Source of the DNA: Cytobacillus gottheilii | GTDB taxonomy: Bacteria > Bacillota > Bacilli > Bacillales > Cytobacillaceae | DNA: 64,000 bases | Reading direction: 5' to 3' | Assembly: GCF_900166665.1 (NCBI RefSeq) | Contig: NZ_LT800494.1 | Location: forward strand, 4,442,383-4,506,382 | In this document: positions 24,736 through 27,577 of the stretch, piece by piece | How positions within the stretch are numbered: the stretch's first letter is position 1 | Layout: every line of letters starts with the position of its first letter | Translations under genes and position numbers: made by a program | Notes under the pieces: generated by a model | What the model saw: only the letters and a program-made list of their open reading frames with translations | What the model was told of the DNA's origin: nothing | The model's database searches: none

Positions 24736-24777
24736 AATTTGCGCACGCTCAAATAAGCGCAAATATATGAATGATAG

Positions 24778-24875
24778 CGCCACTTTCCTACGCAGGTACG
24801 AACCTGTTCAGGTTATGAGGGTTTAAAAGTAACTACTTTATTCTCAGCCCTTATCAAGGGATCCCCTAGTGTTAA
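24778..24875 (-). promoter_or_regulatory. TPP riboswitch (THI-box)
   Basis: Read leftward, the leader has AGGGGATCCC, AAGGGCTGAGAA (the CUGAGA pyrimidine-sensing loop), ACCCTCATAACCTGAACAGG and GTACCTGCGTAGGAAAGTGGC (pyrophosphate-sensing arm), i.e. the conserved thi-box core in correct order. It controls the tenI-thiOSGF operon through the terminator just downstream. The ACCTGAACAGGTTCGTACCTGCG arm differs slightly from the usual CUGAUCUGGAUAAUACCAGCG. Confidence 0.92.
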
Positions 24876-25052
24876 TTGTATTCTGAAACATTTATACATA
24901 TTTTAGCATAAATTAGATAGATTTCCACCCTTTTTTAGTTTTAGAATGTCTTCATCAACCTTAAGAAGAATCAATCTGAGGTGTAAATTCTTATTTGTTC
25001 AATCTGTTTTCCATCAGTATCAATAAATCATTTGATATAAAAAAAACCTATA

Positions 25053-25086
25053 CAAAAAAAGAAGCAGTGCGTAGGAGCACTGCTTT
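25053..25086 (-). terminator. Terminator after the sda-like gene
   Basis: Read leftward: GCAGTGCTCC-tac-GCACTGC then TTCTTTTTTT. It supports the small gene at 25093-25236 as a transcribed end of the cluster. Confidence 0.88.
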
Positions 25087-25092
25087 TAGATG

Positions 25093-25236
25093 CTATGATT
25101 TCATTTCAACTGAATTTTTTTTCACAATTTTTATGTTTCTTCTTATCATCTCTTCCGCTAGCATTGCAATAAAATCTTCATCAAGTTCTAGTCTTATTGC
25201 ATCTTGATAGGCTTCGATTAATTCCTCATTTGACAT
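25093..25236 (-). CDS. sda: Sda-like sporulation histidine kinase inhibitor
   Basis: A 47-residue helical-hairpin protein. MSNEELIEAYQDAIRLELDEDFIAMLAEEMIRRNI lines up with B. subtilis Sda ([35 protein letters not shown]) along its full antikinase core. Sda binds the DHp domain of KinA/KinB and blocks phosphate entry to Spo0A when DNA replication is perturbed. No clear DnaA boxes were seen upstream, unlike the classic sda promoter. It follows the 118-aa helical protein by 81 bp on the same strand and precedes a strong terminator, so it may be the last gene of the B12-sensor/kinase cluster. The RBS (GGGGTAAGG) is moderate. Confidence 0.8.
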   Translation of the reverse strand: MSNEELIEAYQDAIRLELDEDFIAMLAEEMIRRNIKIVKKNSVEMKS

Positions 25237-25317
25237 TTTCAAAACAAACCTTACCCCTTTGACACAGTTTTACCCTTATATTTTACATTTTGTTCTGTAA
25301 CAGTACAAAGTAAATTT

Positions 25318-25674
25318 TTATATTTCCTTCAAAGATGAAAGTGCGAGGACAAAGGCTTTCCGATAAAATTCCTCTCGCTCTGCTGATAGTTGGCCTTCAA
25401 TTTTAGAATAAATTCTCTCAAAATTATCAATTATATGCTCTGTTTTCATTCCCCTGCTCGTTAACACATTGTTAAGCCAGTGGGAATAATCGAGGAAAAT
25501 CTTTGGTTCATTGACAGAAAAAGCTGTTTCGAGATTTTTAAAGTGATGCCCGTTATCTTCCTTGCACTTTTCTTTGCCCCGTTCTCCAAATCGCTCCATC
25601 AGTTCGGGGTAGGCAAGATATGTATCCTTCATGACATCTTCTATGATGTTTGCAATAATTATATCGTCATTCAT
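25318..25674 (-). CDS. Small helical protein of unknown function, in kinase cluster
   Basis: A 118-residue, almost wholly helical, soluble protein without a recognised family. Features: YPELMERFGERGKEKCKEDNGHHFKNLETAF (charged, His-His, a single Cys), then FLDYSHWLNNVLTSRGMKTEHIIDNFERIY, whose aromatic/Trp pattern resembles helical sensor or globin-like bundles. It follows the histidine-kinase-like gene by 48 bp with GAGGTGATAAGG before ATG 25674; an upstream in-frame ATG at 25713 lacks a good site. It is likely part of the same operon as the B12-domain protein and could be a partner or effector of the kinase (inference). Confidence 0.7.
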   Translation of the reverse strand: MNDDIIIANIIEDVMKDTYLAYPELMERFGERGKEKCKEDNGHHFKNLETAFSVNEPKIFLDYSHWLNNVLTSRGMKTEHIIDNFERIYSKIEGQLSAEREEFYRKAFVLALSSLKEI

Positions 25675-25722
25675 CCTTATCACCTCTATCAATAGCAAAT
25701 TCCGGAGCTGCATTTACGATCC

Positions 25723-26829
25723 TTACATATCTATAGGCAGAATAATGGTAAATTGTGAGCCGCTTTCTGCTTCACTTTTCACCTCAATTGTGCCTCCATG
25801 CATATTGATAATATGCAGTGAAACAGCCAATCCAATTCCAGTTCCCTTCTCTTTCATCGTGAAAAATGGGGTAAAAAGGTTTGCAATGGTTACTTGTGTC
25901 ATCCCGATTCCATTGTCCTCAAATGAGATACTAATGGCATCATCTGTTAAATCCGTTCTTATGAGAATTTGTCCATTGTTTCTGTTTTTGCTATTTTGGA
26001 TCGCTTCCATCCCGTTTCTCAGGATATTTAAGAAGACTTGCTTCATCTGCTTCACATCAACATTAACAGCAGGCAGAATATGTTCTTTTACATACTTTAC
26101 TTCACAATGGATCTTTTTCGATTCTGCATTTGTCAGCTGGACCACTTCAGTAATCATTTTCTGCAGGTTGGATTGGGTTTTATTGGGGGTAGCTGGTTTT
26201 GTCGTATTCAAATATTGGTAGATAAGATTGTTTGCCTGATTGATTTCGTCTAATGCTATATTTGCATAATGCTCTTTGCCAATCGAACTTAGATGCGGCT
26301 TAAGCAGTTGTAAAAAACCCCTGATACTTGTTAAGGGCTTCTTCAATTCATCTGCAATGTGACTGACTAACTTACTAATATTCGATAGATTGTCTTGCTG
26401 CATAAGAAGCTGCTGCACTCTTTTTAAAGAGTGTTCCAGTTCATCCTGTTTCTCAGCAATTGTAAGATTTTCATTGTTCAGCTGTCTTTCCAGCTTTGTT
26501 ACAAATGATTGGACCTGATGAACAAATTCTTGTTTTTCAATACAAAAAACATTTAACTTCTTTTCTGAATCCCATTGAATATATACATCAAAAAGGGTAA
26601 TAGGCTGATGCTTCGTCAGCATATTAATTTCAATCTTCGTTTGGCCGACGTTAGATTTCATAAATTTTTCGACCTTTTTTATACTTCCGTAGTCAACCAA
26701 ATCCATAAAATTGGACGCTTGCGGGAAATGCTGAAATACTTCGTCAGATACACCGAGTATATTTAATTGCTCATCCATTATAAAATACGGGAAAGGGACG
26801 GATTCAATATGATTCTTAGCTACCGACAT
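25723..26829 (-). CDS. Histidine-kinase-like protein with Asp at the phospho-acceptor position
   Basis: A 368-residue soluble protein. It has an N-terminal PAS-like domain (about 1-100: VPFPYFIMDEQLNILGVSDEV), a coiled coil (about 105-148), a DHp-like segment, and an intact HATPase domain (N-box NILRNGMEAIQNS about 268-280; DNGIGM 305-310; GTGIGLAV 329-336). The H-box reads SHIADELKKPLTSIRGFLQLLKP, where sporulation-kinase-type proteins have SHEIRNPLT..; aligned on the PLT, the acceptor His is D160, while H157 lies three residues earlier. The start overlaps the B12-domain gene end by 14 bp, so the two are coupled. It may act as a pseudokinase, phosphatase or ATP-dependent scaffold. Confidence 0.85.
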   Translation of the reverse strand: MSVAKNHIESVPFPYFIMDEQLNILGVSDEVFQHFPQASNFMDLVDYGSIKKVEKFMKSNVGQTKIEINMLTKHQPITLFDVYIQWDSEKKLNVFCIEKQEFVHQVQSFVTKLERQLNNENLTIAEKQDELEHSLKRVQQLLMQQDNLSNISKLVSHIADELKKPLTSIRGFLQLLKPHLSSIGKEHYANIALDEINQANNLIYQYLNTTKPATPNKTQSNLQKMITEVVQLTNAESKKIHCEVKYVKEHILPAVNVDVKQMKQVFLNILRNGMEAIQNSKNRNNGQILIRTDLTDDAISISFEDNGIGMTQVTIANLFTPFFTMKEKGTGIGLAVSLHIINMHGGTIEVKSEAESGSQFTIILPIDM

Positions 26830-27478
26830 AATCTCTGCTGCTAATCTTATTATTCACAAGCCAATCATTAACCTCAACCAAATCCTTCAGAACCACCGTT
26901 TTACTTTTAAGATAATCATTTAATGGATACATGGTTGATACTCTCCCTCCAACTATAATCTTCGGCTTATAGTCTAATTGGTCAATTTGCTCCACCAATC
27001 GGATCAGATTCGGAAGATTATACACGATAGATATTGAGATACATAGGACATCTGGCCTCCACTTATTTGCAAATACAACTGCATCATGTACAGGAAGATT
27101 TGATCCAAAAAAGCGTATATCCCAGCTATGTTCTTTAAAGACATTGTGGACCATTTTTAGACCTAGGCTATGCTCTTCCCCTTCTATGCAAAACATCATT
27201 ACCTTGCCTGGAGACTTCTTTTTTTCGATCGCAGCACTTTCTCCTACTTTAGAAAGCACAAAACTGCATACATTGGATGCGATATGCTCCTCTGCAACAG
27301 AAATTTCATTTTCCTCCCAAAGCTCGCCTATGTATCTCATTACTTTCGTTAATAGCATTTCATAAATATATAGACGATCGTATCCTTCATCTATCAATTT
27401 TGATACTTCAACCCATGTGCCGTGTTCGTCTCCTTTTAGCATTAAATCTGCTAAATCCTTTACTATTTTCCCCTGCAT
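26816..27478 (-). CDS. Stand-alone CarH-like cobalamin-binding (photosensor-type) protein
   Basis: A 220-residue protein with a B12-binding_2 four-helix bundle (about 10-85) followed by a Rossmann-type B12-binding domain. The bundle carries W-x9-EH (LWEENEISVAEEHIAS), the motif that caps the adenosyl face of AdoCbl in CarH photoreceptors. The second domain has E-x-H-x-x-G (EEHSLGLKMV), whose His is the lower axial ligand. There is no MerR DNA-binding domain, so output is probably by protein contact. It is translationally coupled to the kinase-like gene. GTG 27487 is possible, but ATG 27478 has AAGAG at 8 bp. A corrinoid methyl-carrier role is less likely, as no methyltransferase is near. Confidence 0.85.
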   Translation of the reverse strand: MQGKIVKDLADLMLKGDEHGTWVEVSKLIDEGYDRLYIYEMLLTKVMRYIGELWEENEISVAEEHIASNVCSFVLSKVGESAAIEKKKSPGKVMMFCIEGEEHSLGLKMVHNVFKEHSWDIRFFGSNLPVHDAVVFANKWRPDVLCISISIVYNLPNLIRLVEQIDQLDYKPKIIVGGRVSTMYPLNDYLKSKTVVLKDLVEVNDWLVNNKISSRDYVGS

Positions 27479-27577
27479 TCCAAACACTCTTTTACCGTTT
27501 TTATCATCAGTTTAACAGAAGAAAGTACCATCTACTAGTGCAATTTAATAGATTATGGAATTTTCATAAAAAATCCT

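Follow-up and report, generated by a model that had tools for sequence, protein, structure and literature searches.

Cytobacillus gottheilii and ten related genomes encode a B12-binding protein, a kinase lacking its phospho-acceptor histidine, and an extra Sda side by side

Introduction

Why would an additional member of the Sda family, whose Bacillus subtilis representative inhibits sporulation kinases, be encoded beside a B12-binding protein that carries light-sensor motifs? This question is raised by a locus of Cytobacillus gottheilii (NCBI RefSeq assembly GCF_900166665.1, contig NZ_LT800494.1, positions 4,442,383 to 4,506,382). In this 64,000-nucleotide stretch, hereafter the window, four minus-strand genes at 25093-27487 encode a B12-binding protein (B12 protein), a kinase-like protein, a small helical protein, and an Sda paralog. 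An earlier note, made from the DNA letters, had described four such same-strand genes and proposed that they exert light- or B12-responsive control over sporulation entry; a check of the open reading frames (ORFs) found all four genes present on the minus strand. We find that the B12 protein, a kinase that has lost its phospho-acceptor histidine (the dead kinase), and an Sda paralog are linked in 11 genomes from five genera and three Genome Taxonomy Database (GTDB) families.

Results

Linkage of the B12, kinase, and sda genes

Genomes are denoted by G numbers and loci by L numbers. The Sda-linked genomes are those of the window (G000), C. gottheilii FJAT-2394 (G038; L143, NZ_KV440945.1), a Bacillus metagenome-assembled genome (G189, L149), G190, G187, Bacillus sp. 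PS06 (G254, L144), B. pinisoli (G241, L145), G278, G365, G341, and an uncultured member of the Bacillaceae (G390, L146). The window and G038 proteins share 96.4% (B12 protein) and 98.9% (kinase) amino acid identity. Searches with the kinase yielded 17 matches across the order (397 genomes), seven of them Sda-linked, and 54 matches in the family of the window (193 genomes), where five were Sda-linked and the other 49 were weaker. All four matches in the family of G254 (17 genomes) and both in that of G241 (three genomes) were Sda-linked. Eleven is a lower bound, since the five or ten best kinase candidates per genome were scored and, of the 49 weaker matches just mentioned, 41 fall outside the count.

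The trio occurs in at least five different flanking contexts (window/G038, G189, G254, G241/G278, and G365/G341/G390), with the flanks of G187 and G190 covered to 1.5 kb. Because it recurs in 11 genomes and several contexts, we rejected chance clustering as an explanation of the linkage. The earlier note had held that a separate promoter and a lack of conserved linkage between the sda-like gene and the other three would refute its proposal; linkage to the B12 and kinase genes is what we found.

A kinase without its phospho-acceptor

The four window proteins were searched against Pfam, and all family matches reported for them exceed the cut-off. The kinase-like protein matches HisKA (1.6e-10) and HATPase_c (1.3e-21). 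Its DHp and CA domains match the Geobacillus KinB of PDB entry 3d36 (E 6.8e-28, second best of 26 PDB matches), an entry that also contains an Sda chain. The designation pseudokinase in the earlier note proved apt: the phospho-acceptor position, residue 160, is Asp (codon 26350-26352, minus strand), whereas the equivalent residue is His in 11 other compared kinases of the same genome. The N, G1, and G2 boxes of the HATPase domain are kept. The N-terminal region, which also occurs in the STAS proteins of the related operons described below, appears PAS-like by eye; Pfam gave no PAS match in this region and no STAS domain in any of the four window proteins.

The residue at the histidine position varies across the 11 Sda-linked kinases (D, D, G, G, R, E, N, S, N, N, N), while the H-box proline and the ATPase boxes are retained. 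His is kept by 15 of the 17 compared relatives without a linked Sda, the exceptions being G524 (T) and G549 (D, with a decayed ATPase domain). In G189 and G254, sda is immediately followed by a gene for a kinase with an intact His. The dead kinases are under purifying selection, with whole-gene ratios of nonsynonymous to synonymous substitution rates (dN/dS) of 0.037-0.098 in seven measurable pairs; an eighth pair was saturated. By part, dN/dS was 0.039-0.094 for DHp and 0.000-0.123 for CA, and the PAS-like part was constrained too. In each of the seven pairs the kinase value lay below that of the B12 gene, which ranged from 0.11 to 0.24 over eight pairs.

In the kinase tree, the 11 Sda-linked proteins group with the long-branch, degenerate row G549 in a clade supported at 100/100, and a topology constraining the 11 alone as a clade was not rejected (approximately unbiased test, p 0.249). 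The tree therefore does not support a scenario in which His was lost, and Sda gained, several times independently. Judging from the sequences, the two changes probably arose once, and the evidence lies in the joint retention of His loss and Sda linkage, not in repeated origin.

An additional Sda without DnaA boxes

The cluster Sda matches PF08970 with 56.9 bits against a cut-off of 22.6 (1.7e-15) and B. subtilis Sda (1pv0) with an E value of 0.0011. The Sda-like gene followed by a terminator, as first described, is supported, with a terminator-like hairpin present downstream (Table 1). The window genome has three Sda copies, the cluster copy included. We searched 15 genomes with PF08970, namely nine Sda-linked genomes (G187 and G190 lie outside this set) and six others. 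Every genome has a high-scoring, canonical-type Sda; all nine Sda-linked genomes add the cluster copy, and each of the six others has a single copy. The canonical copy of the window genome is not that at G000:C4:2238210, as the copy with DnaA boxes lies at C4:1439844. Exact DnaA boxes were found upstream of all 15 canonical sda genes and of none of the nine cluster sda genes. A single box with one mismatch was present at three cluster sda genes (shuffle mean, 0.14 per locus). The expression of sda is described as being under DnaA control, and Sda as an inhibitor of KinA and KinB, in PMC5295017; PMC8534201 places its binding site at the base of the DHp of these kinases.

At all 11 Sda-linked loci, the sda frame contains a TTG codon behind an AAGG[AG]GT stretch. 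In G365, G341, and G390 the ORF opens also at an ATG 18 codons upstream, and there the TTG is the presumed start. Cluster Sda dN/dS was 0.10-0.29 in seven pairs, with those of G365, G341, and G390 calculated over a 66-codon ORF whose first 18 codons are probably untranslated. The cluster copies have diverged from canonical Sda. Nevertheless, the positions of the B. subtilis hydrophobic residues L21 and F25, which we take to be important, are kept in nine aligned cluster copies.

The B12 protein carries light-sensor motifs

The B12 protein matches the Pfam families B12-binding (3.3e-15) and B12-binding_2 (6.1e-15); Pfam gave B12 domains only, and no DNA-binding helix-turn-helix (HTH) domain. 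Among PDB entries it is closest to the photocobilins (8j2w/8j2x, E 3.9e-18; 8j2y, 3.2e-14), with CarH at 2.3e-7. The light signatures of B12 photoreceptors are given in PMC11796333 as GxxW, EH, GxxH, and GxxxP. The window protein contains the CarH light-sensor motif Wx9EH (W57, E67-H68), the cobalt-ligand motif ExHxxG (E104, H106, G109), and GxxxP (G128, P132), all three of which are invariant across 12 aligned sequences, including that of the window. Wx9EH and ExHxxG are present in the B12 proteins of all 11 Sda-linked loci; the stricter GxxH signature is present in nine, G187 and G278 having E for G. A cobalamin adenosyltransferase (PF01923) is encoded in 11 of 11 Sda-linked genomes, although this family is common and was also found in nine of 14 control genomes.

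The helical protein as a putative photoglobin

The earlier note had recognized a small helical protein. The ORF is real, and what was not recognized is its likeness to photoglobins. No Pfam family matches the window protein, and no similarity to the B12 protein was detected. A 14-sequence profile gave matches that are each weak alone, to phycocyanin alpha (2vjr, E 0.0086) and, among photocobilins, to the C-terminal part of 8j2x (E 0.024) and 8j2y (0.067). One relative matches Pfam Phycobilisome below the cut-off (E 0.0016). The biliverdin contacts of the photocobilin SasPcob are given in PMC10979010 as Asp270 and Trp296. These align with D40 and W66 of the helical protein, under a chain-numbering offset of 5 inferred from the joint match of both residues. 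With duplicates counted, the D40 position is Asp in 91 of 92 rows and the W66 position is Trp in all 92. Opposite the chromophore Cys of the phycocyanin CxRD motif lies Cys37, which is shared by 70 of 92 rows; a CXQD motif is reported for photoglobins in PMC10151467. The profile matches are weak and both key biliverdin contacts agree, and we read the helical protein as a photoglobin, i.e., a putative bilin-binding, globin-like protein. Given this likeness to the bilin-binding domain, the cluster looks like a photocobilin whose parts are encoded as separate proteins. On this reading, the helical protein would be comparable to the photoglobin family of Schneider et al. 2022, which reportedly comprises non-heme, globin-like proteins and domains tied to B12 light sensors.

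The photoglobin gene is intact at seven of the 11 Sda-linked loci, is a truncated remnant in G278, and is absent in G341, G187, and G190. No photoglobin match was obtained anywhere in G341 (order-wide profile search) or in G187 and G190 (family-wide, single-sequence search). The loci of these three genomes also lack an antibiotic biosynthesis monooxygenase (ABM; PF03992) common in related operons; they keep the B12, kinase, and sda genes, with sda directly after the kinase gene. ABM occurs at five of the 11 loci, in G365 split over two overlapping frames. Consequently, of the four-gene unit first proposed, the trio stands, whereas the helical gene is a variable member and the ABM gene of most relatives is missing from the window.

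A common Bacillales operon

Photoglobin matches were found in 57 of the 193 genomes of the window's GTDB family (single-sequence query) and in 163 of the 397 genomes of the order (profile search). Two of the 57, L071 and L072, were rejected as false, having no match to the photoglobin profile. We compared 77 neighborhoods (L033-L072, L103-L138, and L142). Photoglobin, B12 protein, and a STAS-type protein occur together in 51, and 44 of these 51 also have ABM. The common order is ABM, photoglobin, B12 protein, and STAS protein, in most cases with a 4-nt overlap between the ABM gene and the start of the photoglobin gene. Pfam STAS was matched by two of four tested operon proteins (L036 and L044), with the window genome's own copy just under the cut-off. 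The window cluster has the kinase-like protein in place of the STAS protein and lacks an ABM gene. At nine of the 77 loci (L104, L111, L112, L116, L123, L130, L135, L137, and L142), ABM and photoglobin are accompanied neither by a B12 gene nor by Sda or this type of kinase. The ABM protein could make bilin from heme. The Asn of the IsdG triad is not evident in the ABM alignment.

Other arrangements were also observed. The window genome has a second B12 locus (L190:3656-5468; G000:C4, approximately 4012155-4013967) with the order ABM, B12 protein, and STAS-type protein. No photoglobin lies between its ABM and B12 genes, and the window locus lacks ABM, so that the two form a complementary pair. 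In L107 and L136 (genus g35), a different, 50-amino-acid Sda-like gene precedes an ABM-photoglobin pair at distances of 285 and 86 nt; this is a second kind of Sda-photoglobin neighborhood, with no B12 protein or pseudokinase nearby. L125 and L126 have photoglobin and B12 protein beside proteins that by eye resemble GGDEF diguanylate cyclases, not STAS proteins. In L051, L053-L056, L058, and L061, photoglobin is divergent from the B12-STAS genes and adjoins a kinase of 1,144-1,182 amino acids, a CheB-CheR-PAS-kinase by Pfam in the one tested; these photoglobins have T in place of the chromophore-type Cys.

Layout of the window cluster

The features of the cluster are given in Table 1.

Table 1. 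Genes and signals of the cluster, in window positions
Feature	Position	Strand	Remarks
B12-binding protein gene	26816-27487	-	223 amino acids; GTG start at 27487, in-frame ATG at 27478 (the end given in the earlier note)
Kinase-like protein gene	25723-26829	-	368 amino acids; 14-nt overlap with B12 gene
Helical protein gene	25318-25674	-	118 amino acids from the likelier ATG at 25674; ORF opens at 25713
sda paralog	25093-25242	-	49 amino acids; TTG start; 75-nt gap after helical protein gene
AAAGGGG, ribosome-binding-site-like, before the TTG of the sda paralog	25254-25260	-	Sequence reading
Intrinsic-terminator-like hairpin after the sda paralog	25062-25085	-	Terminator scan

The ATG at 25674, preceded by AGAGGTGATAAGG, is the likelier start of the helical protein gene; this start leaves a 48-nt gap to the kinase gene. 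The terminator scan, which covered 7 kb, is weak by itself, since it found eight sites where 5.2 would be expected. The terminator-like hairpin also occurs in C. gottheilii G038 and is not obvious in seven other lineages compared. No convincing promoter was seen by eye ahead of the B12 gene or sda, and the sites of a sigma-70 scan were no more numerous than in shuffles. The cluster is flanked by a MatE transporter gene and, by eye, thiamine genes. A TPP riboswitch (RF00059, 71.5 bits, 24768-24877, minus strand) precedes the thiamine genes downstream of the cluster. It is the only Rfam match in the window at the gathering threshold, and control by a cobalamin riboswitch was accordingly rejected.

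Discussion

From the observed gene content, conservation, lost His, motifs, and missing DnaA boxes, we infer light sensing coupled to the docking and release of Sda. Our preferred reading, held tentatively and at somewhat less than an even chance, is that the cluster encodes a B12/bilin photoreceptor in separate pieces, coupled to a sporulation brake of its own via the DHp of the dead kinase. The B12 protein would bind adenosylcobalamin, and light would cleave the Co-C bond and change the dimer state of the protein; the photoglobin, where kept, would supply a bilin antenna. This change would be passed to the kinase-like protein, which has no phospho-acceptor His and has kept a KinB-like DHp and a conserved ATPase domain. 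The dead kinase would be a dock, switched by light, for the Sda encoded in the cluster, holding it in one light state and freeing it in the other, and the freed Sda would block the true sporulation kinases and thereby gate sporulation entry. Since DHp is the surface gripped by Sda in KinB, such docking is the most likely role of the dead kinase. Lacking DnaA boxes, the cluster sda would therefore report light or B12 instead of replication. The earlier note's core idea of light/B12 control of sporulation entry is strengthened by the conserved linkage, with light sensing, Sda activity, and an effect on sporulation being predicted.

A more specific form of this proposal, in which a dead histidine kinase is a light-switched platform docking a private, DnaA-free Sda and B12 photochemistry sets the amount of free inhibitor, is possible though doubtful. 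In that form, a photoreceptor would control cell fate by catching and releasing a kinase inhibitor, not by phosphorylation or DNA binding.

Parts of the cluster resemble known systems. RsbR and YtvA exemplify STAS- or stressosome-type outputs, and in the related Bacillales operons a STAS-type protein accompanies photoglobin and B12 protein; the window kinase shares only the N-terminal region with these STAS-type proteins and has no STAS domain. The photocobilins SasPcob and AbDPcob are described by Zhang et al. 2024 (PMC10979010) as combining a B12 domain, with CarH-like W...EH (printed W-(10)x-EH) and E/DxH motifs, and a bilin-binding, globin-like domain, as the cluster would. However, both photocobilin domains lie in one chain, whereas the window cluster and the compared relatives use separate genes; photocobilins lack a Cys at the phycobilin-type position, where the window photoglobin has one; and their partner is a diguanylate cyclase, in contrast to the pseudokinase and Sda of the window. 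CarH shares the light-signature motifs of the window B12 protein, in which its HTH DNA-binding domain was not found. The cluster Sda belongs to the same family as the Sda of the B. subtilis checkpoint, described as inhibiting KinA and KinB at the DHp. Unlike B. subtilis Sda, it is an extra paralog with a TTG start and no DnaA boxes, adjoining a B12 sensor and a dead kinase. RocA (PMC7028121) and DivL (PMC4211667) are described as proteins of the histidine kinase fold that act through partner proteins; RocA can dispense with its phospho-acceptor, and DivL has another residue in its place. The window dead kinase differs from both in that no membrane part was noted, it adjoins a B12 protein and Sda, and His is replaced by six different residues across the loci. 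Among the papers listed in literature searches, none describes the B12-dead kinase-Sda arrangement in its title or abstract opening; Schneider et al. 2022 may show the Bacillales operon. No mention of Bacillus was found in the photocobilin and photoglobin texts examined.

Several observations weigh against an Sda-docking dead kinase. G524 lacks both His and an Sda within approximately 5 kb on either side, and G549, inside the clade of Sda-linked kinases, also lacks Sda. At least 3.3 kb on either side is free of an Sda match for 10 of the 17 unlinked kinases; for the other seven, at most 1.5 kb of flank was covered, in one case only 58 nt downstream. As the 11 kinases, G549 aside, belong to one clade, that His was lost and Sda gained may be a single historical coincidence. 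Low dN/dS is no special mark of the dead kinases, because three pairs of His-bearing relatives have similarly low values where measurable. Nor is the cluster Sda alone in having left DnaA control, since six further, off-cluster Sda paralogs (L247 and L253-L257, in G241, G341, G390, G038, and G000) also lack an exact DnaA box. The dN/dS of the window/G038 Sda pair is 1.39 over 49 codons, too short for trust, yet it lends the proposal no support. Finally, the 59-164 nt gap before sda may hold a separate promoter.

The main rival is that the dead kinase acts directly on the true sporulation kinases, by heterodimerizing with them or lending its ATPase domain, in the manner of RocA and DivL with their partners, while Sda is a parallel output that switches the same kinases off. 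The retained ATP-binding boxes, the purifying selection on the CA domain, and the 16 further kinase matches in the window genome all suit this explanation, as does DivL, described in PMC4211667 as having Tyr at the His site and working without kinase activity. Alone, however, direct action gives no reason why the brake is kept adjoining, and we consider it unlikely, if still a serious contender. Alternatively, Sda may be an internal part of the sensor complex that binds the dead kinase only, with an output other than sporulation, for instance the stress response that the STAS relatives may also control. The STAS-type protein of related operons, the position of sda directly after the kinase gene in three genomes, and the divergence of the cluster copies are in line with such a role. 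Nevertheless, the L21 and F25 positions are kept, and the Sda action described in PMC8534201 and PMC5295017 is inhibition of KinA and KinB; we judge an internal role improbable.

Two further explanations dispense with the physical coupling of Sda to the kinase. Under plain co-expression, Sda would be made whenever the photoreceptor operon is transcribed and would act as a dose brake. The shared strand, the short gaps, and the conserved ribosome-binding-site-like stretch with its TTG start are as expected for co-expression, yet the cluster encodes no DNA-binding protein, and the loss of His together with Sda is left unexplained, which makes this account quite improbable. The cluster may instead be a relic, its genes adjacent by descent with no joint function. 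Although the arrangement is probably of single origin and both photoglobin and monooxygenase were lost in several lineages, the low dN/dS of the kinase and B12 genes and the persistence of the trio in at least five flanking contexts, while intervening genes were lost, render a relic very improbable.

An unannotated Bacillales protein family becomes testable as photoglobin. If the docking of Sda by the dead kinase is true, the cluster would provide a direct molecular link from light, or cellular adenosylcobalamin, to the sporulation decision that bypasses the sigma-B stressosome. Pseudo-histidine kinases would gain a new role, that of holding an inhibitor protein, the Sda checkpoint would prove capable of being rewired to an input other than replication, and the cluster would constitute a natural, multi-piece photocobilin of use for optogenetics. 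Because the genes for a B12 sensor, a dead kinase, and an extra Sda have stayed together, these data suggest that light or B12 may help time spore formation in this Cytobacillus-like bacterium and ten relatives.

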